The position numbers and the translations under genes were made by a program. The notes beneath the pieces are model-generated. The model ran no database searches. It was not told the origin of the DNA and was given only the letters and a program-made list of their open reading frames with translations. Shown here one piece after another: positions 5,036 to 20,282 of a stretch of 64,000 nucleotides of DNA (positions are counted from its first letter, which is position 1; each line of letters starts with the position of its first letter). The DNA comes from Haloplanus ruber. GTDB lineage: Archaea > Halobacteriota > Halobacteria > Halobacteriales > Haloferacaceae. Location of the stretch: the NCBI RefSeq assembly GCF_024494725.1, contig NZ_JANHDK010000002.1:310001-374000 (forward strand), in the 5' to 3' direction.

Positions 5036-5189
5036 CCGGCGACCGTCGGTCTCGCGCCGACTCGCCCGCACAGCAATCGACGATCCAACTCTTATACTGA
5101 GGCATGTGACCGTATAACTCCGGCGGCGGCGTGTGTCTCGGGCGTCAGATTCCCGAACGGGGTTGTTCCCACTCGTCGTGTGGTGTGGT

Positions 5190-5657
5190 ATGTCAACACA
5201 AACTGCGGCCGAAACGGGCAAGCTGGACGGCAACTGGCGAGCGGGGACTCTCGGCGGTATCGCCGGTGGACTGGTGATGGGAGCGCTCGTCGTGGCGATG
5301 AACGCTCCGACGCTGGCGGTGGCCATTCCGTCGCTGTATGCGCTGGCACCGCCCCCGACCCTCGGGCTGGGGATGGTCGTCCACGTCTCTCACGGGGCGG
5401 TGCTGGGCGTGGTCTTCGCGGCGCTCGTCGGCGTGAGCGGCGTGCGGACGCCGACAACACAGGTGGGGCTGGGAATCGCGTGGGGTGTCGCGGCGTGGGT
5501 GGGCTTCGCGGCCCTCCTCATGCCCCTCTGGCTACGTGCGGTCGGATCGCCCGCGTCGCCACCGTTCCCCAACTTCGCGCTGCCGTCGCTCCTGTGGCAC
5601 GCTGTCTACGGCGCCGTGTTGGGGGCGGTCTACGTGGCGACCGAGGAGGCGGTGTAG
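5190..5657 (+). CDS. Small polytopic membrane protein, conserved hypothetical
   Basis: A 155-residue protein that I do not recognise functionally. After a short polar N-terminus (about 20 residues) there are four hydrophobic segments at roughly 22-42, 60-83, 92-115 and 130-150, rich in Gly, Ala and Val, so it is an integral membrane protein. The ATG at 5190 is preferred over an upstream in-frame GTG at 5133, because the upstream 19 residues are basic and poor in the haloarchaeal acidic signature. It ends five bases before the end of the convergent aminotransferase gene, so the two share a very short terminator region. Function unknown. Confidence 0.75.
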   Translation: MSTQTAAETGKLDGNWRAGTLGGIAGGLVMGALVVAMNAPTLAVAIPSLYALAPPPTLGLGMVVHVSHGAVLGVVFAALVGVSGVRTPTTQVGLGIAWGVAAWVGFAALLMPLWLRAVGSPASPPFPNFALPSLLWHAVYGAVLGAVYVATEEAV

Positions 5658-5662
5658 ACCGG

Positions 5663-6985
5663 TCAGTGCCCGTCCCAGTCGTCGAGGGCGTCCTCGATGG
5701 CGGTGACGGTGCGTTCGAGGTCGTCGCGTGGGATGGTCAGCGGCGGCTGGAATCGGAGGACGTTGGAGTGGAAGCCGCCGACGCCGATGACGATGCCCGA
5801 CTCACGGAGGTGGTGGCCGACGTGTTTCGCGAGTTTTGGGTCGGGCGCGGGGGCGACGTCCATCGGCCCGGTCTCGGCGGGGTCGATGAGTTCGACCCCC
5901 TGCATCAGTCCGAGGCCGCGGGTCTCGCCGACGACGTCGTACGCTTCCAGATCCGCGAGGCGGTCGCTCAGCCACGCCCCTCGGTCACGGGTGTCGTCGA
6001 CGATGCCGTCCTGTAGCTCCTCAATGGTCGCGAGCGCCGCCGCGCAGGCGACGGGGTTGCCGCCGAACGTCGAGAGGTGATCGCCGGACTCGAAGGCGTC
6101 CGCGACCTCCGGGCGGGCAGTGAAAGCCCCCAGCGGCAGGCCGTTGGCGATTCCCTTTGCCTGGGGCATGATGTCAGGGACCACATCGAAGTGGTCCGAC
6201 GCCCACAGTTCGCCGGTGCGGCCGTAGCCCGACTGAACCTCGTCGACGATCAGCAAGGCGCCGTGGTCGTGGGCGATTTCCTGCACGCGGGAGAGCCATC
6301 CCTCCGGCGGGACGATGATGCCACCCTCGCCCATCACCGGCTCGACGACGACCGCCGCGAGGTTGTCGGCAGTGTGAGTGTTGATGACACGCTCGACGTC
6401 CTCGGCACAGGCACAGGAACAGGGGCCGCCGTCACAGAGCTGGCACCGGTAGGCGTAGGGGGGTGCGACGTGAGCGACGTCGTTGATCGTCGGCGCCATG
6501 TCGGACTTGTAGGCCTTGTTGCCGGTCAGCGCGAGGCTCCCGAGGGTCCGGCCGTGGAACGACATCTCCAGGGCCAACACCTCCTTGTTACCCGTGTACT
6601 TGCGAGCGAGTTTGATCGCCCCCTCGACGGCCTCGGTCCCGGAGTTACAGAAAAAGGACTTCTGAAGGTCTCCCGGCGTCACCTCGGCGAGTTTCTCGGC
6701 GAGGTCCGCCGCCGGCTGGTGGGGATGGACGTACGTACAGCCGTGGACGAACTCGTCGAGTTGCTCCTTGGCAGCCTCGACGACCGCGTCGTTGCCGTGG
6801 CCGACGTTGGTCACGGAGATACCCGAGAAGACGTCCAGATACTCGTTGCCGTCGAAGTCCTCGACGGTACAGTCGTCCGCCCGCCGGATCGGAACGTTCA
6901 GTTCCTTCCAGATCGGCATCAGGTACTCCTCGTACTGCGCTTGGACCGTCGCGTTGGTGGCCCTCGATGTGTAGTCCTGTGACAT
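5663..6985 (-). CDS. Class III aminotransferase (4-aminobutyrate / putrescine type) with a Cys cluster
   Basis: PLP-dependent aminotransferase of 440 residues. PLP-site motifs are CNSGTEAVEGAIK, SFHGRTLG, VDEVQSGYGRTGE and the Schiff-base Lys277 in PQAKGIANG. Between residues 181 and 193 lies a cluster of five cysteines (C181, C184, C189, C191, C193) that could bind a metal. The family covers GABA, ornithine and putrescine-type omega-amino donors; the next genes (polyamine-type ABC transporter, aldehyde oxidoreductase, ureohydrolase) favour an omega-amino substrate, but the exact one is not readable from sequence. Transcription is from a TATA-like box near 7021-7028, with a perfect inverted repeat just upstream. 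It is convergent with the membrane protein at 5190. Confidence 0.88.
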   Translation of the reverse strand: MSQDYTSRATNATVQAQYEEYLMPIWKELNVPIRRADDCTVEDFDGNEYLDVFSGISVTNVGHGNDAVVEAAKEQLDEFVHGCTYVHPHQPAADLAEKLAEVTPGDLQKSFFCNSGTEAVEGAIKLARKYTGNKEVLALEMSFHGRTLGSLALTGNKAYKSDMAPTINDVAHVAPPYAYRCQLCDGGPCSCACAEDVERVINTHTADNLAAVVVEPVMGEGGIIVPPEGWLSRVQEIAHDHGALLIVDEVQSGYGRTGELWASDHFDVVPDIMPQAKGIANGLPLGAFTARPEVADAFESGDHLSTFGGNPVACAAALATIEELQDGIVDDTRDRGAWLSDRLADLEAYDVVGETRGLGLMQGVELIDPAETGPMDVAPAPDPKLAKHVGHHLRESGIVIGVGGFHSNVLRFQPPLTIPRDDLERTVTAIEDALDDWDGH

Positions 6986-7020
6986 TCGTTACCCGTGCCT
7001 ATGTGAACTCTTTCCTACTA

Positions 7021-7028
7021 AATTAAAC
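7021..7028 (-). promoter_or_regulatory. TATA box of the class III aminotransferase gene
   Basis: On the minus strand the sequence reads gtttaattta, about 35-40 bases before the ATG at 6985, in an otherwise GC-rich region. It fits a haloarchaeal TATA element giving a short 5' leader. Confidence 0.55.
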
Positions 7029-7033
7029 TTTCT

Positions 7034-7054
7034 CGAATATTACGCCAATATTCG
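7034..7054. promoter_or_regulatory. Perfect 8-bp inverted repeat, candidate operator
   Basis: CGAATATT (7034-7041), five-base spacer, AATATTCG (7047-7054). The two arms are perfect complements, and they lie just upstream of the TATA box of the aminotransferase gene, in the only gap between it and the 3' end of the AOR gene. The position suits a dimeric regulator such as the Lrp/AsnC protein encoded at 8883-9371; that link is inference. Confidence 0.5.
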
Positions 7055-7089
7055 GATCGAAAGTGGACCGTGTACGAACCTGTTCGCGT

Positions 7090-8775
7090 TCAGGCCTCGG
7101 CGGTCGTCGCGCGATAGTCCGCCGGGAGCGCCTCCTCGGGAACGATCCCATCTTCCCACCCGCGGCGGTCGTAGTACTCGTCGAGCGCCCGGTCGAACTC
7201 GGGCAGTTCGTAGGGGAGTTGGTCGTCTTCGCGGTCGAACCCTCGCTGGTTGTTGAAGTGACGTTCGAGGGTGACCACGCGGCCCCCGACCGCGAGGAGG
7301 TCCGCGAAGTCGGCGTCGAACAGCCGTTCGTAGCGGTCGGGGTTCATGTACTGCCGGGAGAACTTACAGACGACGCCGCTGTCGTTGAGCGCCATGAGGT
7401 TCTCACGGTGGACGAGCGTGTCGGCCTTGCCGAGCGTCCCCGACGGCTCCAGAGCCTGATCCTCGTCGACGAGCGGGTACTCCACCGAGTAAAACGTCGC
7501 GTACATGTGGTCGGCGCCGCGGTTGGCGACGGCGTAGGAGAGTCCCTGACCGTTGAGGACGCGCCCTTCGTGGGCGGCGAAGTCCATCCCCTTGACCGAC
7601 CAGTTCTCGACGCCCAGGTCGTCGTGGACCCGGTCGATGCCCTCCGCGAGCGTGTCTCCGACGCCCTCGCGGTAGGCAATCTGTTCGACGGTGTCGTGGA
7701 TCAACTCAGTGTCGCCGAACGCGTCGTTCGCCGCCAGATAGGCCGCAACCGTGTTGCCCGCGGAGATGGCGTCCAATCCGTACCGGTCACAGAGCTCGTT
7801 GGATTTCATCACGTCGACGATGTCGTCGACGCCGGAGTTCGACCCGAAGGCCATGGCCACCTCGAACTCCGGGCCTTCCGTCTCGACGCCGCGTGCCTCG
7901 TCTTTCGTCGGGAGCTTGCAGGCGAACGCACAGGCCGAACAGGTTCCTTTCTTGTACTTTTTCGACTCGACGGCCGCGCCGTCGATTCCGTCGACGCCCT
8001 CGAACTGCCGCTCGGAGAAGTAGTAGGAGGGCAGTCCCTCGACTTCGTTGGCCAACTCCATCACCGCGACGGTACCCTGCCGTTTCATGATGTCGTCGGC
8101 CGTCGCCGCCTCGCGGTGTACCTCGTTTTGGGTCGCGTCGATGTCGATGTCTCGTTTCGCGTCGCCGTCGACGGTGATCGCCTTGACGTTTTTCGCTCCC
8201 ATGACGGCACCGAGACCGCCGCGGCCGAAGGCGCGTTCCTCGGAGGTCATGATGGACGCAAAGCGAACCTCGTGTTCGCCCGCCGGGCCGATGACCGCCG
8301 TCTGATCGGCGGTGATCCCGTGTTCGGTTTCGAGATAGTCGACCGTCTCCGGAACGGTCGCCCCCGCGAGACCGGGGACGGGTTCGAACTCGACGCCGTC
8401 GTCACGGACGTGAATCGCCAACAGTTCGTCGCTCGCCCCCGCAATCTCGATGGCGCCGTAGCCCGTGGCCGTGAAGTTCCGCGACATGAACCCGCCGGCG
8501 TTGCTCGACAGCAGACCGTCAGTCAGCGGCGAGACGCCAGTGCAGTTCATCCGGCCGGTGAAACTCATCGTCGAGGCCTGCATCGGTCCCGTGGTGAACA
8601 CGAGTCGGTTCTCCGGGCCGAGTGGGTCGACGTCGAAGGGGATGCGCTCGTGAGCCAGTCGCGTCCCGACGCCACGACCGCCGATGTACCGCTCTTGGAC
8701 CGTGTCGATGTCGGCCGTCGTCGTCTCGCGTGCCCCGACATCGAGCGTCAGTAGCGGGCCGGTGTCGTGTATCAT
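7090..8775 (-). CDS. aor: Tungsten-containing aldehyde:ferredoxin oxidoreductase
   Basis: Oxidises an aldehyde to the carboxylic acid and passes electrons to ferredoxin, using a bis-tungstopterin cofactor and a [4Fe-4S] cluster. The N-terminal domain has the family segments YIGGRGVGTRL, FTTGPMQ and AFGRGGLGAVMGAKN. The cluster ligands are visible as C279, C282, C286 (CSACAFAC) and the distal C470 (VVCKFS). The length is 561 residues, slightly shorter than thermophile enzymes. ATG at 8775 is preceded by a TATA-like element near 8799-8806. Its neighbours (two omega-aminotransferases, polyamine-type transporter, glutamine-synthetase-like ligase) suggest that it removes amino-aldehydes; the substrate is inferred. 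Confidence 0.93.
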   Translation of the reverse strand: MIHDTGPLLTLDVGARETTTADIDTVQERYIGGRGVGTRLAHERIPFDVDPLGPENRLVFTTGPMQASTMSFTGRMNCTGVSPLTDGLLSSNAGGFMSRNFTATGYGAIEIAGASDELLAIHVRDDGVEFEPVPGLAGATVPETVDYLETEHGITADQTAVIGPAGEHEVRFASIMTSEERAFGRGGLGAVMGAKNVKAITVDGDAKRDIDIDATQNEVHREAATADDIMKRQGTVAVMELANEVEGLPSYYFSERQFEGVDGIDGAAVESKKYKKGTCSACAFACKLPTKDEARGVETEGPEFEVAMAFGSNSGVDDIVDVMKSNELCDRYGLDAISAGNTVAAYLAANDAFGDTELIHDTVEQIAYREGVGDTLAEGIDRVHDDLGVENWSVKGMDFAAHEGRVLNGQGLSYAVANRGADHMYATFYSVEYPLVDEDQALEPSGTLGKADTLVHRENLMALNDSGVVCKFSRQYMNPDRYERLFDADFADLLAVGGRVVTLERHFNNQRGFDREDDQLPYELPEFDRALDEYYDRRGWEDGIVPEEALPADYRATTAEA

Positions 8776-8798
8776 GGTTGGAGACTGTTCTGTGCTAT

Positions 8799-8806
8799 CA
8801 ATAAAT
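8799..8806 (-). promoter_or_regulatory. TATA box of the AOR gene
   Basis: The minus strand reads caacatttattgatag, centred about 28 bases before the ATG at 8775, the spacing expected for a leaderless haloarchaeal transcript. Confidence 0.5.
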
Positions 8807-8882
8807 GTTGTTGTGTGTCCCCTCGAAGGCTTCCGATACGGAGGCTATTCAGATTACGTTCGGATGTTAGAACAAAATACAA

Positions 8883-9371
8883 TTAGTCGTCGACAAGCGT
8901 GTCGACCAGCGCCTCGGTCCCGAAGTCGTTGATCGGATACGGCTCGCGTTTGACCGTCGCGATGACGAACCGCGAACTCGTTCGTCGGATCGCGTCGATG
9001 GCCTCGTACTCCTCGATCAGCGTCTCGACCATCTCCCGACTCGTGACGTGGGAGACGACGATGAAGTCGGTGTCGCCCATGGTGAAATACACCTGATTTA
9101 CCCCTTCGATTTCGGAGAGTTTCTCGCCGACAATCGTGTGGTATCCCTCGTCGAACTCGGCGTACACCTCACTGATGACCGTGATATCGAGACCAAGCTC
9201 CGAGAGATCCATGTCGCCGAGGTCATTTTCTAGGACGCCCCGCTCGCGAAGTTGGTCGAGGCGGTAGTGAACCGTCGATTTCGGAATTCCCGTGTGTTCT
9301 TGGATACGATCCGGGCTCGTGATGCCCTCCGCCGCCACCGTCTTCAGAATACGAATGTCTTTCTCGTCCAT
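8883..9371 (-). CDS. Lrp/AsnC family transcriptional regulator
   Basis: DNA-binding regulator of 162 residues. The N-terminal winged helix-turn-helix (about residues 1-50) reads IRILKTVAAEGITSPDRIQEHTGIPKSTVHYRLDQL in overall pattern, followed by a linker and an alpha-beta RAM-like effector domain (about 65-145) that in this family binds small molecules and drives oligomerisation. It sits between the AOR gene and the polyamine-type transporter genes, so it is the likely local regulator; whether it activates or represses is unknown. The symmetrical element at 7034-7054 and the inverted repeat at 13883-13896 are candidate targets. Confidence 0.9.
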   Translation of the reverse strand: MDEKDIRILKTVAAEGITSPDRIQEHTGIPKSTVHYRLDQLRERGVLENDLGDMDLSELGLDITVISEVYAEFDEGYHTIVGEKLSEIEGVNQVYFTMGDTDFIVVSHVTSREMVETLIEEYEAIDAIRRTSSRFVIATVKREPYPINDFGTEALVDTLVDD

Positions 9372-9492
9372 TGTCGAAGAGGCGTCGTCACGTTCACCGC
9401 AGTCCGTCTGAAATCGACATCGACCCCTCCCGACATCAAGGTTTCCAATTCTTGGACGAGGTTCATCCTTCGGCGGCTGAGTGAGACGACGT

Positions 9493-10617
9493 TTATTCGA
9501 AGATGAGTTCCCCGGAAGTGGCGGGGAAGCCGACGGTTACCGTCTCACCCTCGTCGAAGGCACGGGTCGTCTCGTTGATCTGTCGCTCGACGTGGAGTTC
9601 GAGGGGACCGACGTCGACGTGGTACTGCTGGATCGACCCCTTGTAGATGGCGTCCTCGATGGTGCCGGTCCACTCGTTGACCGTGTTCAGCGTCTCGGCG
9701 CCGTCGGCCAACTGGACCCGTTCGGGACGGACGGCGACCGCCGCAGACCGGCCGTCCGCGTCGGCGGCAGCCGTAACCGTGACGTCGAGGCCGTCGGTCC
9801 TGATGATGCCGGTGTCGTCGCCGGCCTCGTAGGTTCCCTCGAAGAGGTTCGTCTCGCCGAGGAAGTTCGCCACGAACGTCGTCTGAGGGTGTTCGTACAC
9901 CTCGCTGGCCTCGCCCACCTGCTCGATTTGCCCGTCGTTCATGACCGCGATCCGGTCGCTCATCGTCAGCGCCTCCTCCTGATCGTGGGTCACATAGAGG
10001 AAGGTGATGCCGAGTTGCTCCTGGATCTTCTTCAGTTCGACCTCCATGTGCTGGCGGAGCTTCCGGTCGAGACTCGCCAACGGCTCGTCGAGAAGGAGCA
10101 CGTCGGGTTCACGGACGAGCGCCCGAGCCATGGCCACGCGCTGTTTCTGGCCGCCCGAAAGCTCCGTCGCCCGCCGGTCGTGGTAGTCCGGGAGTTCGAC
10201 GAGTTCGAGGATGTCGTCGATGCGCTGGTCGCGCTCGTCGGCCGGGACGCCGTCCATCTCGAGACCGAACGCGACGTTTTCCTTGACGGTCATGTGCGGG
10301 AACAGCGCCCACTCCTGGAACACCATGCTGGTGTCGCGCTCGTTCGCGGAGAGCGGGGTCGAGCGGTTCCCGCTGATGAACACGTCGCCGTCGGTCGGCG
10401 TCTCCAGGCCCGCGATCATGCGGAGCGTCGTCGACTTGCCACACCCCGACGGTCCAAGCAGGGTCAGGAACTCCCCGGCCCTGATCTCGAGGTCGATGCC
10501 CTCGACTGCGAGGACGTCGCCGTACTCCTTTCGCAGCCCTTCGAGCTGTATTCGGCCGGTCCCCTGGACAGTACCCTCGGTCATCTCACTATCGCCCGAT
10601 AGTTGTGGTGAACTCAT
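9493..10617 (-). CDS. potA: Polyamine-type ABC transporter ATP-binding protein
   Basis: Cytoplasmic ATPase of a spermidine/putrescine-family importer. Walker A is GPSGCGKST, the Q-loop region reads MVFQEWALFPHMTVKENV, the signature is LSGGQKQRVAMAR, Walker B is VLLLDEPLASLD and the H-loop is YVTHDQEEA. The C-terminal 120 residues form the TOBE domain usual in PotA/MalK-type subunits. The start is taken at ATG 10617 (374 residues), with an internal ATG at 10584 as an alternative. It lies 19 bases after the potD gene in the same direction, while the two permease genes are divergent. The substrate class (polyamine) is family-level inference; some relatives carry thiamine, iron or other cations. 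Confidence 0.9.
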   Translation of the reverse strand: MSSPQLSGDSEMTEGTVQGTGRIQLEGLRKEYGDVLAVEGIDLEIRAGEFLTLLGPSGCGKSTTLRMIAGLETPTDGDVFISGNRSTPLSANERDTSMVFQEWALFPHMTVKENVAFGLEMDGVPADERDQRIDDILELVELPDYHDRRATELSGGQKQRVAMARALVREPDVLLLDEPLASLDRKLRQHMEVELKKIQEQLGITFLYVTHDQEEALTMSDRIAVMNDGQIEQVGEASEVYEHPQTTFVANFLGETNLFEGTYEAGDDTGIIRTDGLDVTVTAAADADGRSAAVAVRPERVQLADGAETLNTVNEWTGTIEDAIYKGSIQQYHVDVGPLELHVERQINETTRAFDEGETVTVGFPATSGELIFE

Positions 10618-10636
10618 GGATCGTTCGGTTCCGCGC

Positions 10637-11884
10637 TCAGATTCCGGCCCGGGCTTTCGCCTCGGTCCAGAGGTCGGTCCACGTGTCGGTGATCGGTGAG
10701 AACTCGTAGGGCGTCGTGTTCTGGGAAATCTCCGCGGCCGCGTCGAACCCTTCCTCGTTGAACATGAGCGCCTGCTGCTGGCTATCGTCGAACATGTCGA
10801 AGGAGTCGGTGTTGACCGGCGGACTCTTCGCGGAAGGCTTCCAAGAGACGTTGTACTGTCCCTGCGCGGAGATGATCTTCCGCTGGAACTCGACGGCAAG
10901 CTCCCGGTTGGACGGGTTCTTGACGATACAGAGGCCCTCGGTCCACTGCATCCCGCCTTGCTCCGGAATGACGACGTTGACCCAATCGTTGCCCTCGGCG
11001 CGAAGCTGACTCATCGCGAAGTTACCGACGGGCGCCATCACGATGTCCTCCTGCAGGAACGCCTGCCGGATGGCGCTGGTTCCCGAGTAGACGGCGTTCA
11101 TATTCGAGAACATGTCGACGAGCTTCGACCGGATGTCCTCGATCTGGGATTCGGTCTGCTCGAAGGCGGGGTAGCCGAGCGAGAGCGCAATCTTCGGGAT
11201 ATTCCACGTCGGCCAGTCCATAATCCCGATTTTCCCCTCGTACTCCCCGTTCGGTCCGCCCGTCCAGAGAGTCTCGTACGACTGGTAATGCTCCTCGGGG
11301 ACCTGATCCGTGTTCACCGTGAGCGTGTCCCAGCCCCACCGGGTCGGGAGGGCGTACATCTCCCCGTCGTGTCGGAACGAACTGAACGGCTCCTGGAACC
11401 GCTCCAGGAAGTTCTCTCGCTCGGGGTAGTCGGCGGGGTCGAGCGGTTCGATGGTGCCCGCTTGTGCGTGGCGCTGTGCCCACGTGTTGTTCAGCGTCAG
11501 GAGGTCGAAGGTGTCGGTCCCCCCGCTTTGGAGCGTATTGAACCCCTCGGGGTCACTCGAGAGGAGTTTGATGTTGACCGTCGCGTCGTGTTCGCTCTCG
11601 AACTCGCTGACGATTTGGTCGGTGCCGTACCCCTCCCAGGTCAGGATGTTCAGCGTGTTTCCGTCCCCGGAGGCGTTCCCGGTCGTCGTCCCCGTGGAAC
11701 CGCCCTCGCCGCCGTCACCGCTGCTCTCGCCGCCGTCGCCACCGTCGCTGCCGCCGACGTCTCGCCGCCCGGCACAGCCGGCAAGCCCCGCGGCTCCGAC
11801 GCTACCCGCCGCAACCAGAAAGGCACGACGACCCGATCTGTTCGATGCATCACCCTCGCCCGTGTTCCGCCGGGAGTTCGTCAT
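10637..11884 (-). CDS. potD: Polyamine-type ABC transporter substrate-binding lipoprotein
   Basis: Extracellular binding protein of the PotD family. It begins with a twin-arginine signal: NRSGRRAFLVAAGSVG then a lipobox LAGC, so it is exported folded and lipid-anchored. A Gly/Ser/Asp/Glu-rich linker (about residues 35-65) precedes the binding domain, which opens with NTLNILTWEGYGTDQIV, the pattern of PotD proteins. I start at ATG 11884; an in-frame codon at 11899 would add five residues ahead of the signal. Promoter: TATA-like element at 11910-11917. It is divergent from potB, so the shared 224-base region probably controls the whole transporter. Confidence 0.9.
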   Translation of the reverse strand: MTNSRRNTGEGDASNRSGRRAFLVAAGSVGAAGLAGCAGRRDVGGSDGGDGGESSGDGGEGGSTGTTTGNASGDGNTLNILTWEGYGTDQIVSEFESEHDATVNIKLLSSDPEGFNTLQSGGTDTFDLLTLNNTWAQRHAQAGTIEPLDPADYPERENFLERFQEPFSSFRHDGEMYALPTRWGWDTLTVNTDQVPEEHYQSYETLWTGGPNGEYEGKIGIMDWPTWNIPKIALSLGYPAFEQTESQIEDIRSKLVDMFSNMNAVYSGTSAIRQAFLQEDIVMAPVGNFAMSQLRAEGNDWVNVVIPEQGGMQWTEGLCIVKNPSNRELAVEFQRKIISAQGQYNVSWKPSAKSPPVNTDSFDMFDDSQQQALMFNEEGFDAAAEISQNTTPYEFSPITDTWTDLWTEAKARAGI

Positions 11885-11909
11885 ACACACACACTGCAAA
11901 ATCTAACGA

Positions 11910-11917
11910 CTTATACT
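11910..11917 (-). promoter_or_regulatory. TATA box of potDA
   Basis: The minus strand reads aagtataagtc, centred about 29 bases before the potD ATG at 11884; the spacing suits a leaderless transcript. Confidence 0.5.
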
Positions 11918-12076
11918 TACTCCTTGTTTCGGACAAGATCTGATTATATACCTGAATTATGAATGAAGTCCACGTATTGTTCGTTTCACCGTACCACGTG
12001 TCTACTTTCGGCCGCCGCCGCCGACGGAACCACGACCGGCGGCCTCGAAGGACAAACAGTCGGAAGCCACCACAAC

Positions 12077-12083
12077 ATATATT
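12077..12083 (+). promoter_or_regulatory. TATA box of potBC
   Basis: acatatattgg lies 26-32 bases before the potB ATG at 12109. Together with the opposite box at 11910-11917 it defines the divergent transporter promoter region. Confidence 0.5.
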
Positions 12084-12108
12084 GGACAGAGTATCACTAA
12101 CCTGAGCC

Positions 12109-13008
12109 ATGTCAGAACAAACGTCTCAAGAACCAGGGGGAGGTTGGTCTCTGTTCGAATCCTCTCCGGTCTCCCGGGACCTCCTTGTGACCGCAGGGCC
12201 GCTAGTGTTGCTGGAGTTGCTCTTTTTCATCGGCCCGGTGCTCATCATGTTCTACATCGCGACGATGCGCATGGAGGACCTGGTGTTGATCCCGAACTAC
12301 GGCATCGGGAACTTCCTGTCGGTGTTCACGGAGTTCGTCAACCGGACCGCGTTCGTGAACACGACGACGCTCGCGGTGTTGACGACGGTGACGGCGGCCG
12401 TCATCGCGTATCCGCTCGCGTACTACATCGCCCGGTTCGGCGGCCGGTACAAGAACCAACTCGCGGTGCTGGTGATGATCCCCTTCTGGACGAACTTCAT
12501 CGTCCGCGTCTACGGCTGGAAGATCATCCTCGGCTCCCAGGGGGTCCTCAACTCCGCGCTGATGGCGCTCGGGGTCGTAAACCAGCCCATCGAGTGGATC
12601 ATCAACTCCAGTTTCTCCATCTGGCTCGGGCTGACGTATCTCTGGTTGCCATTTATGATCCTCCCGCTGTACTCCAGTCTCGAAAAGATCGACGGCGAGA
12701 TCATCGAGGCCGCCTACGACTTGGGCGCCTCGCGGTACGCCGTGTTTCGCCGGATCGTCCTTCCGCTGTCGCTGTCGGGGCTCGTCGGCGGCTTCATCTT
12801 CGTGTTTATCTTCAGCATGGGGGCGTACATCGTCCCCGCGATGCTCGGCGGCGGCGAACTGTTCATGGGGACGCGGATCGCCTACGAGTTCGGCATCGGC
12901 GGTGACTGGCCGATGGGCGCCGCACTCGGGAGCGTTCTGATGATCGTCGTCGTGGGGGTCCTGTGGTCGCTGCTCGGCTACGTCAACCTGGAGGAGATGT
13001 TCCAATGA
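12109..13008 (+). CDS. potB: Polyamine-type ABC transporter permease (PotB)
   Basis: Inner-membrane permease of 299 residues with six or so membrane segments and the family EAA loop visible as EAAYDLGASRYAVFRRIVLPLSLSG in pattern (about residues 203-225), where PotA docks. The N-terminal 25 residues are cytoplasmic and polar; the first membrane helix follows at about 28-50. The start at 12109 has a TATA box at the expected distance. Its stop overlaps the start of potC (ATGA at 13005), so the two permeases are translationally coupled and probably form a heterodimer. Confidence 0.9.
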   Translation: MSEQTSQEPGGGWSLFESSPVSRDLLVTAGPLVLLELLFFIGPVLIMFYIATMRMEDLVLIPNYGIGNFLSVFTEFVNRTAFVNTTTLAVLTTVTAAVIAYPLAYYIARFGGRYKNQLAVLVMIPFWTNFIVRVYGWKIILGSQGVLNSALMALGVVNQPIEWIINSSFSIWLGLTYLWLPFMILPLYSSLEKIDGEIIEAAYDLGASRYAVFRRIVLPLSLSGLVGGFIFVFIFSMGAYIVPAMLGGGELFMGTRIAYEFGIGGDWPMGAALGSVLMIVVVGVLWSLLGYVNLEEMFQ

Positions 13009-13826
13009 GTACCCAATCGGAACACGAGCGGGGAACCTCGTTCTCCGTCGCGTCGGTCGTCCGGTTCGTCGAACGAAACTGGATCCGCGCCTGGTCGGCG
13101 CTGGTCTTTCTGTTCCTCTATGCGCCCATCGTCGTCCTCATCGTCTTCTCCTTCGAACAGGGGAACTTCTCGACGGTCCCCTGGGACGGCTTCACGCTTC
13201 AGTGGTACCGTCAGCTTGTGGCCAACAGCCGACTCCTCGACGCCGCAGTGAACAGCCTCTACGTCGGGGCGGTCGTCACGACAGTCGCGACGGTGCTCGG
13301 CACCCTCGGTGCCGTTACCCTCGTCCGGTACGACTTCCGACTTAAGAGCCTCTATCGGTTGCTCGTGGTCGCCCCGATGACGATCCCCGGTCTCATCCTC
13401 GGGGTGGCGCTACTCAACTGGTTCAACTACATCGGCATCTCGACGTCGCTGAAGACGGTCATGATCGGACAGTTGGTGTTCGTTACGCCCTTCGTCCTCA
13501 TTACCGTCACCTCGCGGCTCCGTGGGTTCGATCCCGCGATGGAGGAGGCGGCACGCGACCTCGGCGCGAGTCGGTGGCAGACGTACCGCCGTGTCACCCT
13601 CCCGATCCTCATGCCCGGCATCGTCAGCGGCGCGCTCTTTGCCTTTACCCTCTCGTTCGACGACTTCCTCATCGCGTTTTTCACCAGCGGCGTGAAAAAC
13701 ACCCTCCCCATCTACATCTGGTCGAAGATCCAGCACGGCACGAGTCCGGTCATCAACGCCATCAGTACCCTCGTGCTCCTGTTTAGCATCTCGCTGGTGC
13801 TCGTCAGCTACTACTTCACCGACTGA
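13005..13826 (+). CDS. potC: Polyamine-type ABC transporter permease (PotC)
   Basis: Second permease, 273 residues, with the first membrane helix at about 33-55 and the EAA loop AARDLGASRWQTYRRVTLP at about 185-203. The typical PotC segment FTLSFDDFLIAFF follows. The ATG at 13005 overlaps the potB stop; a longer reading from GTG 12963 would overlap potB by 46 bases and is less likely. With PotA and PotD it completes an importer. It is followed by a 115-base AT-rich gap and then a second aminotransferase gene in the same direction. Confidence 0.9.
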   Translation: MSTQSEHERGTSFSVASVVRFVERNWIRAWSALVFLFLYAPIVVLIVFSFEQGNFSTVPWDGFTLQWYRQLVANSRLLDAAVNSLYVGAVVTTVATVLGTLGAVTLVRYDFRLKSLYRLLVVAPMTIPGLILGVALLNWFNYIGISTSLKTVMIGQLVFVTPFVLITVTSRLRGFDPAMEEAARDLGASRWQTYRRVTLPILMPGIVSGALFAFTLSFDDFLIAFFTSGVKNTLPIYIWSKIQHGTSPVINAISTLVLLFSISLVLVSYYFTD

Positions 13827-13882
13827 CGCCCTCTCTACACAGCGTACGACTATCGGATCGAGTAATGTACTGAGTTCTATAA

Positions 13883-13896
13883 TATCTCTGAAGATA
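13883..13896. promoter_or_regulatory. Short inverted repeat upstream of the second aminotransferase
   Basis: TATCT (13883-13887), four-base spacer, AGATA (13892-13896), about 15 bases before the TATA-like element at 13911-13920. A weak operator candidate on length alone, noted because it occupies the same place relative to the promoter as the repeat at 7034-7054. Confidence 0.3.
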
Positions 13897-13910
13897 GTAC
13901 ACGATACAAA

Positions 13911-13920
13911 ATTTTAAATT
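13911..13920 (+). promoter_or_regulatory. TATA box of the second aminotransferase
   Basis: attttaaatt, 22-31 bases before the ATG at 13942, within a short AT-rich stretch. Confidence 0.55.
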
Positions 13921-13941
13921 TCGAGCGGTCTAGCCGAACGT

Positions 13942-15288
13942 ATGGATCTCTGGAGCGACTACGAGGCGCGGTATCGCGAGCGGACCGCCGAGAGCGAGAG
14001 GGCCTACGAGCGCCTCAAAGAGGACGTCCCCGCGGGCGTGGCGAGTACCTACCGCGCCTGGGACCCGTACCCCTTCGTCGTCGACCGGGCCGAGGGCGTC
14101 CACCTCCACGACGTCGACGGTAACGCCTACGTCGACTTCGATATGAACAACGGGGCCGGCATGGTCGGCCACGCCCACCCTGCGGTGACCGAGGCCGCGG
14201 CCGATCAACTCTCGGATGGCACGCTGTACACCCACCCCCACGAACTCCTCGGCGAGGCCGCGGCGGAGTTGAAAAAGCGGTGGTCGATGGTGGATAAGGT
14301 TCGGTTCACGAACAGCGGCACCGAGAGCACGATGCACGCCATCCGGGTCGCTCGCGCCTACTCTGGGCGGGACAAACTCCTGAAGATCGAGGGCGCCTAC
14401 CACGGTGTCCACGACTACGCCCTCATCAGCAAGTCCACCCCGGCGGGGCAGGTCGGTCACCCGAAGCGCCCGAACAAGGTCGTCGAGAGCGACGGGGTCC
14501 CCGACGAAATCGCGGAGACCGTCGAGGTCGCCCCATTCAACGACCTCGACGCCGTCGAGGAGATTCTCGAGGAACACGTCAACGAGATCGGAGCGTTGAT
14601 CGTCGAACCGGTCGTCCTCGCGAAGGGCGTCACGCAGCCGTACGACGGGTTCCTGCAGGGTCTCCGGGAACTCTGTGACGAGTACGGCGTCGTCTACATC
14701 TTCGACGAGGTCAAGACGGGCGTGAAGATCGCCCCCGGCGGCGCCGCGGAGTATTACGACGTCGACCCCGACCTCGTGACGATGGCCAAGGGCATCGGCG
14801 GCAACTTCCCCGTGGGTGCGTTCGGTGGCCGCGAGGAGGTCATGTCGGTCATCGAGGATCACACCGCCCACTACGGCACCTACAACGGGAACCCGCTGGT
14901 CGCACGCGTCGTCAAGACGGTCCTCCAAGACGTCCTCACCGAGGACGCCTACCACCACGTCAACGACCTCGGGGAGCGACTCGTCGCGGGCTACGAGGAC
15001 ATCATGGCAGACGCCGGCATCACCGGCCACGTAGAGAACGTCAACTCTCAGGGGATCGTCTCCTTCACCGACCGCCGGATCGAGAACTACCGCGACTTCC
15101 TCGATCACGTCGACGTGGAGTTCCACGAGAACTTCTGGTTCGGAATGCTCAATCAGGGGGTCGTCCCCCACCCGCACGACGCGTCCCAACAGTGGACGAT
15201 ATCGGTCCAACACGAGAAACGCCACATCGACGAGCATCTGGAGGCGTTCAAGGAGATCGCACCGCGACTCGCCGAAGAACAGGATTAG
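13942..15288 (+). CDS. Class III aminotransferase, glutamate-semialdehyde-aminomutase-like
   Basis: PLP enzyme of 448 residues. Motifs are TNSGTESTMHAIR (phosphate site), AYHGVHD, FDEVKTGVKIAPGG with D255, and the Schiff-base Lys283 in MAKGIGGNFPVG. The pattern is closer to the GSA-aminomutase/omega-aminotransferase branch than to ArgD or the aminotransferase at 5663. True HemL normally lies with haem genes, so here a catabolic omega-aminotransferase role is more likely, given the polyamine-type transporter just upstream and the GS-like and ureohydrolase genes just downstream. It converges with the GS-like gene; the two stop codons overlap by four bases. Confidence 0.85.
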   Translation: MDLWSDYEARYRERTAESERAYERLKEDVPAGVASTYRAWDPYPFVVDRAEGVHLHDVDGNAYVDFDMNNGAGMVGHAHPAVTEAAADQLSDGTLYTHPHELLGEAAAELKKRWSMVDKVRFTNSGTESTMHAIRVARAYSGRDKLLKIEGAYHGVHDYALISKSTPAGQVGHPKRPNKVVESDGVPDEIAETVEVAPFNDLDAVEEILEEHVNEIGALIVEPVVLAKGVTQPYDGFLQGLRELCDEYGVVYIFDEVKTGVKIAPGGAAEYYDVDPDLVTMAKGIGGNFPVGAFGGREEVMSVIEDHTAHYGTYNGNPLVARVVKTVLQDVLTEDAYHHVNDLGERLVAGYEDIMADAGITGHVENVNSQGIVSFTDRRIENYRDFLDHVDVEFHENFWFGMLNQGVVPHPHDASQQWTISVQHEKRHIDEHLEAFKEIAPRLAEEQD

Positions 15289-16595
15289 AGCGTCTCGACG
15301 TACTGAGTCCGCTCCCAGTCGGTCACCGTCTCGCGGAAGGATTCCAGTTCTCGCCGCTTGCTCGCCGTGTAGGCCCGAACGAGTTCCTCGCCGAGCAGTT
15401 CTGTGAGCGTCGCATCGGTCTCGAGGGCACGCAGGGCCGCCCCGGGTGACTGCGGCAGTCGCGGCGCCTCGCCGATGGGGTCGCCCGCGATGGGGTCACC
15501 CGGATCGAGTTCGCGACGCAGGCCGTCGTAGCCGGCCGCGAGGGTCGCCGCGGCGACGAGATACGGGTTCGCGCCGGCGCTCGGCATCCGGTTCTCGATT
15601 CGCGGGGTGCCCTGGGGGACTCGCACCCCGGTCATGCGGTTGTCCGCTCCCCAGGACGCCGTGTACGGGGCGAACCCGTCCGGGTCGAACCGCTTGAACG
15701 CGTTGAGCGTCGGCGTCCCGACCGCGGTGAGGGCATCGGCGTGTTCGAGGATGCCGCCGACGAACTGTCGGCCGAACGTCGAGAGGGCGCCGTCGTCGGA
15801 GGCGAAGGCGTTCTCGTCGCCGTCGAACGCGGAGACGTGAATATGGTAGCCGCTCCCCTCACAGTCGCCGAACGGTTTCGCCATGAACGTTGCCCGCTGG
15901 TCGACGAGGCGTGCGGTCTGTTTCACCAGTCGCTTGAAGTCGAAGGTGGTATCGGCCTGAGCGAGGGGGCGACCGTAGTCGAAGAGCACCTCCAGTTGCC
16001 CGGGACCGTGTTCGTGCTGAAGCGAGGTCAGATCGACGCCGTAGTCGTCGGCGTAGTCGGTCAGTCGGTCGTAGAAGGGGGCGACCGACTCGGTGGCCCA
16101 GGTGAGACACTCGTGTTTGTGGTCGGTCGCGGGTTCGTAGCCGCCCTCGGCCGGGTTCAGTAGGTAAAACTCCAGTTCGCTCCCGAGATACCACCGGTAG
16201 TCGAAGGCGTCTTCGAGTCGCGAGACGACGGTGTCGAGGACCGTCCGCGGCGCCGCCGCGGCGGGGGCGCCGTCGTAGTGGAGGTCACAGATAACGCGGG
16301 CGGCGTCGTCTCGCCACGGAAGGAGCCGGAACGTCGAGGGGTCGGGGTGGACGGTGCCGTCGCCGTAGTCGATTTCGCTCCCGAAGCCGCTGTCCGTCGG
16401 CACCTCGCTCCGGGGGGTCTGGACCAACAGCAGCATGTTCATCGGGAAGCCGTCTCGCCAGTTGTCGAGGAAGTAGTCCGCCCGGATCTGTTTCGAGCGG
16501 GAGAGGCCGTTGATGTCCCCGAACTCGACGAACACGTGGTCGACGTCCGCCGACTCGATGCGCCGCTCCATCTCTGTCCCGTCGTCACCGGTCAT
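15285..16595 (-). CDS. Glutamine-synthetase family ligase (gamma-glutamyl-amine ligase candidate)
   Basis: ATP-dependent ligase of the GlnA family, 436 residues. Visible active-site motifs: SELEFYLL, EHGPGQLE, KPFGDCEGSGYHIHVSAF, and the C-terminal NRMTGVRVPQGTPRIENR with ANPYLVAAATLAAG. The N-terminal segment FGDINGLSRSKQI lacks the Asp and Ser arrangement that binds ammonium in true glutamine synthetases, which is also the case in PuuA-like enzymes that join glutamate to amines. With the GATase gene at 16748 and the transporter, gamma-glutamyl-polyamine synthesis is the best guess. ATG 16595 is used; an earlier in-frame start at 16676 would add 27 basic residues. Substrate not proven. Confidence 0.85.
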   Translation of the reverse strand: MTGDDGTEMERRIESADVDHVFVEFGDINGLSRSKQIRADYFLDNWRDGFPMNMLLLVQTPRSEVPTDSGFGSEIDYGDGTVHPDPSTFRLLPWRDDAARVICDLHYDGAPAAAAPRTVLDTVVSRLEDAFDYRWYLGSELEFYLLNPAEGGYEPATDHKHECLTWATESVAPFYDRLTDYADDYGVDLTSLQHEHGPGQLEVLFDYGRPLAQADTTFDFKRLVKQTARLVDQRATFMAKPFGDCEGSGYHIHVSAFDGDENAFASDDGALSTFGRQFVGGILEHADALTAVGTPTLNAFKRFDPDGFAPYTASWGADNRMTGVRVPQGTPRIENRMPSAGANPYLVAAATLAAGYDGLRRELDPGDPIAGDPIGEAPRLPQSPGAALRALETDATLTELLGEELVRAYTASKRRELESFRETVTDWERTQYVETL

Positions 16596-16747
16596 GGGTC
16601 CCTCGATGAGCCTGCATCGTTGTCCGTGTGCGACGCGGAGTATTTGAATGTTCCTCACGGCGTGGAGGAGGTCCAACGTACCGCGCTCGATTCGAACACG
16701 AGCCGATCACGGAACGCTTTATTATACCGGGGGTCCTGAATCCCACG

Positions 16748-17395
16748 ATGACGATACTCGTCCTCGACGACGAGGTACAGCCGGATTACCGGTATCTCGG
16801 GCCGGAAATCGACCGTCTCACCCCGGACGGCGAGTATCACGTGTACGCCGAAGACCCGATGACTCCCGACCTGGACGCCTACGACGGGGTCATCATCAGC
16901 GGGAGTACCGCCAGCGTCTACGAGGAGGGGCACCCGTTCATCGACCGACAGCACGACCTGGTGACGGCGTGTCTCGACGCCGGAGTGCCGCTGTTGGGAA
17001 TCTGTTTCGGCCACCAACTCGTCAACGACGCCCTCGGCGGGCGAGTGATCGAAGACCACCGGCGGGCGACGTTCGTCGAGATGGACGTGACGGCACCGAA
17101 CGATCCGGTCCTCGACGGCGTCGGGCGCGTCGTGCCCGTCCTGCATGCCGATCTCGTCGTCGAACCCGGCCGGGGAATGGAGCCAATCGCGACGACCGAC
17201 TACAACGACTACTTCTGTACCCGCCACGAGTCGGCGCCGATCTGGACGGTCCAGTATCATCCGGAGTTCACCGAACGCGTCGAGGACAACCCGAGCGACT
17301 GGGCGCGGGGCGAGTACGACTTCGCGGACGCGAACGCGACGGCGACGATCACCAACTTCGCCGCGGTCTGTGCGCGGCGCGCGGCGGCCGACTAA
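16748..17395 (+). CDS. Class I glutamine amidotransferase-like hydrolase
   Basis: A 215-residue stand-alone GATase domain. The nucleophile elbow is GICFGHQ with C86, and the catalytic pair is H171 and E173 in QYHPEF. The fold resembles the GuaA amidotransferase half, without a synthetase partner here. In the bacterial Puu pathway a class I GATase-fold enzyme (PuuD) hydrolyses gamma-glutamyl-GABA; that role is possible here because of the GS-like neighbour, but it may be another gamma-glutamyl or amide hydrolase. A TATA-like tttatta lies near 16715-16725. Divergent from the GS-like gene and convergent with the ureohydrolase, whose stop it overlaps by four bases. Confidence 0.82.
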   Translation: MTILVLDDEVQPDYRYLGPEIDRLTPDGEYHVYAEDPMTPDLDAYDGVIISGSTASVYEEGHPFIDRQHDLVTACLDAGVPLLGICFGHQLVNDALGGRVIEDHRRATFVEMDVTAPNDPVLDGVGRVVPVLHADLVVEPGRGMEPIATTDYNDYFCTRHESAPIWTVQYHPEFTERVEDNPSDWARGEYDFADANATATITNFAAVCARRAAAD

Positions 17396-18402
17396 CCCTC
17401 GGCGAACTGCCGTTCGAGGAGCGTCACGAGGAGGAAGGCACCGAGGATGCCGGTCACCTCGGTCGGATCGTGGGTCGGTGAGACCTCCATCAGATCGGCG
17501 GCACCGACGGCGTCGTGGGTGCCGAGGACCTCCATCGTCCGGAGCGCCTGGTGGGCGCTGAGGCCGTCGGGTTCCGGCGTGCCGGTGCCCGGCGCGACGC
17601 CCGGGTCGACAGCGTCGATGTCGAAGGTGACATAGACCGCGTCGGCGTCCGCGGCGGCAGCCTCGACGGCGTCCGTAATCACGTCCTCGATCCCGCGTTC
17701 GTGGACGTCACGCATCGTATAGCAGTCGATCCCCGACTCGGCGACGAACTCGGCAAAGTTCGGACCCTCGTAGCCGCGGATACCCACCTGGCTGACGTGG
17801 TCGTAGTCGCACCACGGACTCTCGGCGACGAGTCGCGTGCTCGACCCGTGGTAGTGCTGGCCGAAGACGGGACTCTCGGTCACGGTGTCGCTGTGGGCAT
17901 CGATCTGGACGAGACCGACGGTGTCGTGGCCGGCGCCCTCGGCGAAGCCACGGACGGCGGGGTAGGTGCAGTAGTGATCGCCGCCGAGCAACACCGGGAA
18001 CGCCCGCTCGGCCACCGTCGCGACGTGAGCCTCGATGCTCGCCGCCGTCCGCTCGCGGTCCATGGGAAAGACGGGAACGTCGCCGCAGTCGGCGACCGAG
18101 AAATCGGAGAAGTCCACCTGGGCCCCGGTGTTGACGTTCGTGAGCCCCCCCTTGTAGTTCGAGAGGTAGGCCCACCAGGCGCTCGCCCGCCGGAGGGCTT
18201 CGGGACCGTACCGGGCGCCGGGGCGGTTGCTCAGGGCGCCGTCATAGGGGGCGCCGAGGACGCCCACGTCTGCGGCGAGGTCGTCGACATCTTGCGGATC
18301 GCCCTTGAGAAACGTGTTGTGTCCGGCGTAGGCCATCTCGACGCCCGCCCCCTCGGTGTCGGCGCGAAACTCGGTGGCCGGCGTCCGGCGGCGGTCGGTC
18401 AT
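17392..18402 (-). CDS. Agmatinase-family ureohydrolase
   Basis: Binuclear manganese hydrolase cleaving a guanidino group to urea. All six metal ligands are visible: H143 in GGDH, D168, H170 and D172 in DAHSD, D261 and D263 in DIDAVDP; the following GTGTPEPDG matches agmatinase-type enzymes. The length is 336 residues, with a 50-residue N-terminal extension relative to short agmatinases. Agmatine, guanidinobutyrate or guanidine could all be substrates; the sequence does not separate them. The start is ATG 18402; the upstream in-frame codon at 18486 would add an atypical basic stretch. It may be read with the Nramp-like gene 150 bases upstream. Confidence 0.88.
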   Translation of the reverse strand: MTDRRRTPATEFRADTEGAGVEMAYAGHNTFLKGDPQDVDDLAADVGVLGAPYDGALSNRPGARYGPEALRRASAWWAYLSNYKGGLTNVNTGAQVDFSDFSVADCGDVPVFPMDRERTAASIEAHVATVAERAFPVLLGGDHYCTYPAVRGFAEGAGHDTVGLVQIDAHSDTVTESPVFGQHYHGSSTRLVAESPWCDYDHVSQVGIRGYEGPNFAEFVAESGIDCYTMRDVHERGIEDVITDAVEAAAADADAVYVTFDIDAVDPGVAPGTGTPEPDGLSAHQALRTMEVLGTHDAVGAADLMEVSPTHDPTEVTGILGAFLLVTLLERQFAEG

Positions 18403-18552
18403 CGGGCCCTCCGTCGGCGAGGCGGTCGACCCGCGTCTCGTAGCCACAGGCGTCGGCGACTCGGTGGGGACTGGCGCATGGCGCACGATATTCCACCGAT
18501 GCCGTAAAAGTTGCCGACCCGCGTGGGCGCAGTCGACGAGACGCCAGACGGC

Positions 18553-19944
18553 TTAGAGTCCGAGCAGCGTCTGGATGGAGCCGCGGGCCTCCCAGACGCC
18601 GGAGACGATCATGACGACGCCGGCGAAGATGGCGAGGGCGACGGCCCAGCGCCGCGTCGGCGAGAGCGAGTCGATGTCGATGTCGAACGACATGTACATC
18701 ACCGAGAGGTACATGAGGCCGATGACCGGGGCGAACAGCGCACCGGAGAGGGCAAAGAGGATGAGCGGCGCCTCGAACAACAGGTTGAGCGAGAGCGGGA
18801 TGGCCGCAAACAGCAGGACCGTCCCGCGGAAGACGGTGTCACGGGTGATATCGAAGTTGTCGAAGAGACCGTGGAGCGCGAAGGCGTCCTCCCAGAGCCG
18901 CGACATGCCGTAGAGCGGGCCGATGAGCGTCGAGAACAGGGCGGCGACGGTCGTCAGCAGGAAGAGGGTCGCCGACCACTGGCCAAACTGCGTCGTGAAG
19001 ATAGCCGCCATCTCGGGGATGACGGTGAAGCCGCTTGGCTGGATCCCTTGGGTGTGCAGCGTTGCGGCGGCGGCCGTCCACATGAAAAAGGAGAAGACCG
19101 CCAGGATGACCGAGGAGAGTAGGTTCTGCCAGAGGACGATGTCGCCCCAGCCCTTGAGACGGTCGATCTCCTCGTCGGAGAGGTCGTACTTGTCGATATC
19201 GTGGCCGTCGTCGATGGGTTCGAACATCCCCATCACCTTGTCCTTCGCGAACCAGACGTAGGAGACGGTCGGGCCGAAGCCGGCACCGATCCAGCCGAAC
19301 ATCGTGAGGACGAAAGCCATGCCGCCGACGCCGAGACCGGAGACCTGCCCGGGAACCGAGGGAATGAGGCCGCCCGCGAGGCCACTCATCCACTGGTTGG
19401 CGGTGCTGAGCGAGACAAAGGCGATCAACACGAGGAAGATCCACAGAAGCGAGGTGGCAATCTTCTCGATCAGATCGTAGGACCGCGTCATGACGATGCC
19501 GAGGCCGGCTAGCACCGTCAGCACCATCCACAGGTTCGTCGAGATGGCCGGGTACAGTTCGAAGAACGCACCCGCCGTCTCGCCGAGGTGGCCCGAGAGC
19601 CCGATAGCGTAGATCAGGCCGCCCAGGAACACGTAGTAGAAGATCCACTTCAGTGCCCAACTCTTCTCGTAGAGGGCGTCGAGGAACGTATCGCCCGTCA
19701 TGACGCCGTAGCGGACGAGGTAGTACTGGCCGAAAATCTTCGTGAACGTGATGAGGGGAATGAGCCAGATGCCTTCCATGCCGAGGTAGGCGCCGCCGAG
19801 CGGGACGCTCAGCACCTCGCCGCCGCCGATCTGTGACGCGGTGAACACCCACGCCGGTCCCATGTAGCTCAGAAACTCCTTCAGCGTGGACGGCGGTTCG
19901 GAGATACGCGACTCCGTCGCCGCGTCCACGGACCCGGTACTCAC
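18553..19944 (-). CDS. Divergent Nramp-family (APC superfamily) transporter
   Basis: Integral membrane protein of 463 residues (GTG 19944; GTG 19950 also possible) with about eleven hydrophobic segments. The overall pattern resembles Nramp transporters. However the metal-binding DPGN motif of TM1 is replaced by QIGGGE (residues 38-43), and the TM6 segment reads FGWIGAGFGPT instead of carrying the MPH motif. Both known metal sites therefore look absent, and the substrate is probably not a classical divalent metal. It is transcribed towards the ureohydrolase, so it may import its substrate or another solute of the pathway; that is inference. Confidence 0.8.
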   Translation of the reverse strand: MSTGSVDAATESRISEPPSTLKEFLSYMGPAWVFTASQIGGGEVLSVPLGGAYLGMEGIWLIPLITFTKIFGQYYLVRYGVMTGDTFLDALYEKSWALKWIFYYVFLGGLIYAIGLSGHLGETAGAFFELYPAISTNLWMVLTVLAGLGIVMTRSYDLIEKIATSLLWIFLVLIAFVSLSTANQWMSGLAGGLIPSVPGQVSGLGVGGMAFVLTMFGWIGAGFGPTVSYVWFAKDKVMGMFEPIDDGHDIDKYDLSDEEIDRLKGWGDIVLWQNLLSSVILAVFSFFMWTAAAATLHTQGIQPSGFTVIPEMAAIFTTQFGQWSATLFLLTTVAALFSTLIGPLYGMSRLWEDAFALHGLFDNFDITRDTVFRGTVLLFAAIPLSLNLLFEAPLILFALSGALFAPVIGLMYLSVMYMSFDIDIDSLSPTRRWAVALAIFAGVVMIVSGVWEARGSIQTLLGL

Positions 19945-20123
19945 CGCCACACACCCCCCGTCGGGGCGTCCGCGTCGAGGTGGAGTCGGGGCCGCTGACG
20001 GTCGATGCCTCGGGACGCGTCGACGCATGTCGACGCGCGGATAACTCGATGAACTCGCTGACCCATGTTCGATCCGATGAAAGATAGTGAAGGTAGTATA
20101 AACGCGGAATGGCGCACTTTTTG

Positions 20124-20137
20124 CATGATTTATCATG
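20124..20137. promoter_or_regulatory. Inverted repeat upstream of the Nramp-like gene
   Basis: CATGAT-tt-ATCATG, perfect six-base arms with a two-base spacer, about 180 bases upstream of the assigned start and beside TATA-like sequences. Candidate binding site for a dimeric regulator. Confidence 0.4.
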
Positions 20138-20282
20138 AAAGCCATATTCCTTAAGGTCATATAACCATCCAGCGCGGCCGACGGAATCGGCCGACAGCGC
20201 GTCGACGGCCGCCGTTGAACGGGAGATACCACGAACCGGCAACGGGCTGGGGCGTAGTAACGAATGACGCGGTCGAAAGTGA

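Follow-up and report, generated by a model that had tools for sequence, protein, structure and literature searches.

A candidate polyamine and guanidino-compound catabolic island inserted as one block in the haloarchaeon Haloplanus ruber

The described systems closest to the locus reported here come from bacteria and from one haloarchaeon. The spuABCDEFGH genes of Pseudomonas aeruginosa are a gene set of the same kind (PMC10606097), and the PuuA-E enzymes of Escherichia coli provide a second term of comparison. In Haloferax mediterranei, GlnA-2 (HFX_1688) was assigned by assay as a glutamate-putrescine ligase, an activity almost gone in the deletion strain, and the later steps of putrescine use were proposed but not assigned (PMC8394153); moreover, ten haloarchaea have been reported to possess arginine decarboxylase and agmatinase for putrescine (PMC3102087). 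Here we describe a gene block of Haloplanus ruber, lying in a window of 64,000 nucleotides (the whole stretch analysed, positions 310001-374000 of contig NZ_JANHDK010000002.1, C2, in a 3.28-Mb genome), which was probably gained by horizontal transfer and probably serves the catabolism of polyamines and of a guanidino compound, all its substrates being predicted from sequence.

Pfam and NCBIfam profile scans of the proteins translated from the open reading frames of the window recovered, with their strands, all the genes that a previous reading of the letters alone (hereafter, the sequence-only reading) had named in this block. From left to right, the minus strand encodes the class III aminotransferase AT1, a tungsten aldehyde:ferredoxin oxidoreductase (AOR), an Lrp/AsnC-type regulator (8883-9371, with HTH_24 and AsnC_trans_reg domains), PotA and a PotD-like solute-binding protein (SBP); PotB, PotC and a GntE/HemL-like aminotransferase are on the plus strand, followed by a glutamine synthetase (GS)-like ligase (minus), a stand-alone class I glutamine amidotransferase (GATase; plus) and a ureohydrolase (minus). 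The starts of PotA, PotC, the GS and the GATase were shifted inward to fit their orthologs, that of PotA after the ortholog in genome G083. As in Pseudomonas spu/pauA, counterparts of SpuA (GATase), SpuB/PauA (GS-like ligase), SpuC (class III aminotransferase) and SpuDEFGH (polyamine ABC importer) gather at one locus, although the island is archaeal, has a tungsten AOR, the GntE/HemL-like aminotransferase, a ureohydrolase and an Lrp, shows a shuffled gene order and encodes a GS with just 31-38% identity. Compared with the E. coli Puu route, candidates are present for the ligase, aldehyde oxidation, class I GATase-type hydrolase and GABA (gamma-aminobutyrate) aminotransferase roles, but the window lacks PuuB, in whose place there is an aminotransferase, a DAO-type oxidase being found only in relatives; a Pot importer stands for PuuP, the Lrp for PuuR and, unlike in E. 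coli, the GATase is closer to PF00117 than to Peptidase_C26. No NAD(P)-dependent aldehyde dehydrogenase (ALDH) of the PuuC/KauB type was found in the island, where the AOR occupies that place, while ALDH genes occur in 13 related regions. The island would thus work like Puu/Spu systems, but we do not classify it as a Puu operon, since the tungsten AOR replaces the NAD(P)-dependent enzyme.

The borders of the unit could be set by comparison with congeners. Upstream of the island lies an arginine-biosynthesis cluster whose last gene is argF (above the ornithine carbamoyltransferase cut-off). In three island-free congeners (G111, G062 and G096), argF is followed by a DUF6789 gene (2 of the 3 genomes) and then by a gene for a DEAD_2/Helicase_C_2 protein of about 720 residues, and in G083 the whole gene set, encoding proteins 88-97% identical to those of the window, sits exactly between the DUF6789 and helicase genes. 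Because of these arrangements, the unit is defined as the segment from AT1 to the ureohydrolase (5658-18486, flanked by the DUF6789 gene at 5133-5657 and the gene that follows), which measures about 12.8 kb and was inserted as one block; its right end is at about 18486 and not at 19944, where the sequence-only reading had placed it. The GC content of the island is 0.639, against 0.694 in the left flank and 0.672 in the right flank. A search for flanking or terminal repeats of the island found none, and a scan with bacterial sigma-70 promoter and terminator models returned nothing exceeding chance.

Orthologs of the island GS, delimited at roughly 50% identity and above (the group that comes next reaches at most 41%), occur in 11 of 295 Halobacteriales genomes, distributed over 8 of 88 genera and five families. 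Island-type regions are frequently located on megaplasmids, and plasmid records from eight haloarchaeal species carry this GS at 60% identity or more, one of them with a further 51% copy on another plasmid. We tabulated the neighbours of the GS clade in 24 haloarchaeal regions, the window included. The GATase and both Pot permeases were each present in 20 of them, some class III aminotransferase in 22, an Lrp in 15, and a GntE/HemL-like ortholog (at least 68% identity) adjoined the GS in 12. An AOR was found in 9 regions and an ALDH in 13, with 4 regions having both and 18 at least one of them, and a DAO-type (PuuB-like) amine oxidase in 8, together with an AOR in only one. An OCD-family protein, whose best NCBIfam family is archaeal alanine dehydrogenase (under cut-off), appeared in 9. 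Gene order and strand are shuffled among the regions. The clustering is not due to chance, and a check on whether these genes scatter independently among related genomes showed that they co-occur. Over whole genomes, the ureohydrolase was present in all 11 GS carriers but in only 50 of the 284 genomes that lack this GS (Fisher, 1.4e-8), and by genus in 8/8 with the GS versus 29/88 without (p 6.7e-5), a count that controls for relatedness and genome size only roughly. The GS tree mixes families, with a sequence of G178 (family f7) and the second copy of G336 (f4) inside the f1 group and the window sequence grouping with Halorientalis salina (f4), a pattern that fits transfer between haloarchaea. 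In two genomes, Natrialba magadii (where it is plasmid-borne) and G317 (loci L141 and L139), two different GS copies lie 8-9 kb apart, each with its own importer, which might mean that two polyamines are served.

The GS-like ligase (15285-16595; Gln-synt_C, 294 bits; GS-A clade) had been described by the sequence-only reading as lacking the ammonium site, and this holds: the DGSSI motif of GlnA is absent and GYEAP is replaced by xxFxP in 22/22 orthologs, which retain the metal and glutamate motifs (GSGYH-type and E-x-R). The sister group of its clade consists of bacterial Pau/Spu-type ligases encoded at Pseudomonas and alphaproteobacterial loci (support 100/98), with haloarchaeal GlnA standing apart; this grouping is good but not final, as the tree has several long branches and a midpoint root. 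H. mediterranei GlnA-2 is likewise an archaeal GS-like enzyme without the ammonium residues, but it is 52% identical to its own GlnA-1 (PMC8394153), whereas the window GS shares 39% with the GlnA of the same genome and groups with the bacterial ligases. We propose it as a candidate gamma-glutamylpolyamine synthetase. The linked GATase (16748-17395; GATase, 76 bits; Peptidase_C26, 39 bits), with Cys126-His211-Glu213 invariant across 11 orthologs, is in turn a candidate gamma-glutamyl hydrolase in the role of PuuD/SpuA. For the conversion of amine to aldehyde, the window offers two class III aminotransferases, the second of which, the GntE/HemL-like enzyme (13942-15288), is a candidate gamma-glutamylpolyamine or polyamine omega-aminotransferase; DAO-type oxidases could fill this step in the 8 related regions that have them. 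Bacterial clusters of similar make-up were met in the scan for GS relatives (GS-GS-AT-PotDBCA and Pot-GS-GS-ureohydrolase-GATase). A fusion of an APH kinase to a class III aminotransferase (about 775 residues, PRK06148-like), found in the GS islands of several genomes (L117-L119, L188, L191), hints at a side substrate resembling ethanolamine or hydroxylysine. Other Pot-importer cassettes carry a more distant GS-like protein (34-38% identity; L122, L123, L125, L126, L128-L130, in the same genus and others) with ALDH, MlrC/M81, Fe-ADH, GcvP and SHMT genes and without a GATase; L122 and L123 were therefore set aside as belonging to another pathway, and these cassettes probably serve the use of some other amine, with one-carbon/glycine metabolism as the end point.

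The importer is of polyamine type. The PotA ATPase (9493-10617) scores 362 bits with the curated polyamine-subfamily model TIGR01187, above its cut-off of 355.6, and the SBP, a PotD/PotF-like lipoprotein (10637-11884; SBP_bac_8), was modelled with AlphaFold from 17 sequences (mean pLDDT 75, the N-terminal 73 residues being disordered). The 30 best PDB matches of this model were nearly all polyamine receptors, among them PotF, PotD, SpuD, SpuE and the Listeria and Streptococcus PotD, with TM scores of about 0.77-0.87 depending on the target. The SBP also keeps W83, Y86, W314 and E316 (numbering of alignment A1), that is, two residue pairs that bind the polyamine in the PotD structure, Trp/Tyr near the N-terminus and Trp-x-(Asp/Glu). 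The permeases PotB (12109-13008), divergent from PotD/PotA, and PotC (13005-13826), overlapping the PotB stop, are BPD_transp_1 proteins with the namesake NCBIfam families as their best matches, under cut-off in both cases.

A second group of genes points to guanidino compounds and GABA. AT1 (5663-6985; Aminotran_3, 388 bits; GABA-AT/ornithine-AT type) has GABA aminotransferases as its best solved relatives and is a candidate GABA or omega-amine aminotransferase. It is directly upstream of the ureohydrolase (gap of -46 to +32 bp) in 12 genomes, the majority of which lack the GS clade, and in G261 and G259, which have no GS clade either, it adjoins an AOR together with an Lrp and, in one of them, a glutamate dehydrogenase; the ureohydrolase is near an AOR in G141, G180, G165 and G187. 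The AOR of the island (7090-8775) has the AFOR_N and AFOR_C domains and the iron-sulfur (4Fe-4S) cysteine motif CSACAFAC, its nearest solved structures being Pyrococcus furiosus AOR (1aor) and a Haloferax WOR (9q1t), and we propose that it would oxidise the aldehyde produced by an aminotransferase. In Haloarcula sp. JP-L23 the AOR is absent and the order is GATase, GS, PotCB, SBP, PotA, AT1, ureohydrolase and ALDH, the best family of the latter being NADP-dependent succinic semialdehyde dehydrogenase (588 bits, cut-off 730). It is mainly because of this succinate-semialdehyde-type ALDH in a cluster without AOR that we infer a role for AT1 and the AOR between GABA and succinate.

The agmatinase-family ureohydrolase (17392-18486; Arginase family, 252 bits) resembles GbuA, GpuA and SpeB in its fold and in having all the metal motifs, the two-metal signatures GGDH, DAHSD and DID (DAHxD and DxDxxDP pattern) being kept in the aligned haloarchaeal orthologs. 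It differs from them by a 20-residue loop, WWAYLSxYKGGLTNMxTG, at residues 104-123, which is common to the haloarchaeal relatives and absent from the solved GdmH, GpuA, GbuA and PAH. The protein falls short of the agmatinase (SpeB) equivalog TIGR01230 (162.6 versus 174.3 bits), and elsewhere in the genome lies a core agmatinase-like gene (G000:C5:35679) that resembles the archaeal agmatine ureohydrolase 3pzl. The top solved matches, 7esr and 9fek, would suggest a Ni-dependent guanidine hydrolase (GdmH), but GTGTPEP and IDAHSD replace GTGWPEP and FDRHVD, and this assignment was rejected; Arg72 of GbuA, considered as a means to tell guanidinobutyrate from agmatine, falls at an unconserved position and gave no decision. 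Agmatine or 4-guanidinobutyrate are thus best guesses for the substrate, between which the sequence does not decide. The same ureohydrolase appears in a second recurrent haloarchaeal cassette without GS (L154-L159, L185, L192), with a GntE-like aminotransferase (55%), two NrpR-domain regulators, an SBP, PotA, a fused PotB-PotC, a nitrilase-family hydrolase, a class I aminotransferase and sometimes an HDAC-family protein and AT1. An HDAC-family neighbour, outside the window, was considered as a sign of acetylpolyamine amidohydrolase (APAH) and discarded as weak, since HDAC6 and HDAH are the nearest solved proteins and HDAC10 and APAH come further down. At L161, L162, L163, L169, L172 and L182, the ureohydrolase lies beside an NrpR-domain regulator and/or a sodium:solute symporter, with no ABC importer directly adjoining, and the symporter is perhaps another uptake route for the same substrate.

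Taken in order, PotABCD would import the cation and the GS-like ligase would add gamma-glutamate to one amine, as in the first Puu/Spu step. The GntE/HemL-like aminotransferase (in relatives, an FAD amine oxidase or another class III aminotransferase) would then turn the free amine into an aldehyde, which the tungsten AOR, or ALDH in relatives, may oxidise to the acid, the identity of the aldehyde taken by the AOR being a prediction, and the GATase would strip off gamma-glutamate to leave GABA or a homolog. The ureohydrolase would form a second arm by releasing urea from agmatine or 4-guanidinobutyrate. Both arms would converge at putrescine/GABA, with AT1 transaminating to succinate semialdehyde and AOR or ALDH converting this to succinate, presumably under Lrp regulation. 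The sequence-only reading had proposed an archaeal Puu-like polyamine/guanidino block feeding the succinate level, and its core stands, given the co-occurrence of the genes, the clade and residues of the GS, the fold of the SBP, the AT1-ureohydrolase linkage and the JP-L23 ALDH, with the substrates still putative; its inclusion of an Nramp-like transporter does not.

Several observations weigh against this catabolic assignment. The closest solved relative of the GS is a glutamate-methylamine ligase (9qur, 200 bits) and no polyamine enzyme; GMP synthetase glutaminases are nearest in the GATase model search, which, led by such glutaminase domains, was uninformative as to PuuD/SpuA likeness (SpuA at rank 49); the ureohydrolase is near the GS in under half of the regions (10/24); AOR paralogs exist in 187 of 295 haloarchaeal genomes, so that presence alone says little; and the GS, PotB, PotC, the SBP and both aminotransferases miss the curated NCBIfam equivalog cut-offs.

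The match to 9qur, together with GS-like ligases of this kind that act on ethanolamine and isopropylamine (cited in PMC8394153), leaves some room for a gamma-glutamylation arm with a different substrate (methylamine, ethanolamine, isopropylamine, beta-alanine or an aromatic amine), imported by the Pot-like system. We consider this unlikely in view of the polyamine receptors matched by the SBP fold, the PotA score above the polyamine cut-off, the linked aminotransferases and aldehyde oxidants, which suit a diamine, and the linkage to a ureohydrolase. Somewhat less likely still is that two modules were co-acquired without metabolic convergence, one for GABA/guanidinobutyrate (AT1, ureohydrolase, AOR and Lrp) and one for gamma-glutamylation (GS, GATase, GntE-like enzyme and Pot). 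The AT1-ureohydrolase, AT1-AOR and ureohydrolase-AOR pairs do exist without the GS in many genomes, and no ureohydrolase is nearby in 14 of the 24 GS regions, but every sampled GS genome has one somewhere, a single importer is common to both modules in the island and the products of both fit GABA/succinate.

A biosynthetic island, for a guanitoxin-like or gamma-glutamyl/guanidino metabolite or solute, is very improbable. Its appeal comes from GntE_guanitoxin being the best NCBIfam family for the 13942-15288 aminotransferase; however, the 386 bits obtained miss the cut-off of 525 and the HemL subgroup scores nearly as well (364 bits). In addition, the regions yielded no other recognisable gene for such a biosynthesis, and the importer, AOR/ALDH, GATase and succinic semialdehyde dehydrogenase-type partners are catabolic. 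A chance neighbourhood of unrelated nitrogen genes, for which the shuffled gene order might speak, is refuted by the same set recurring in 24 regions of several families and plasmids, by the ureohydrolase association and by the insertion as one block seen with G083.

Next to the island lies the Nramp-like gene (18553-20232, minus strand) that the sequence-only reading had counted within the block. It is left out, since 11 of the 12 genomes in the genus carry this gene while mostly lacking the island, and since the two are about 50 kb apart in G083; in the sampled order it is present in 3 of 295 genomes. The protein shows QIGGGE and FGWIGAGFGP at the positions of the metal-site motifs, which are usually DPGN and MPH in the family, so these motifs look lost. 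In congeners (L167, 9489-13019) the gene is near a Usp gene and a phosphoenolpyruvate-utilising (PTS enzyme I-like) gene.

Returning to the catabolic island, we advance tentatively the idea that the tungsten AOR may be the aldehyde-oxidising step of haloarchaeal polyamine/GABA catabolism, freely swapped with NAD(P)-dependent ALDHs between otherwise equivalent islands, and that the linked ureohydrolase may represent a new guanidino-compound hydrolase subfamily defined by its 20-residue loop. Until now, the initial gamma-glutamylation was the one step of putrescine use demonstrated in Archaea (PMC8394153); the island and the 23 related regions now give a candidate for each later step, in a pathway that appears to travel between haloarchaea as a block, and they would provide a first testable role, polyamine/GABA aldehyde oxidation, for one group among the many tungsten oxidoreductases of haloarchaea.

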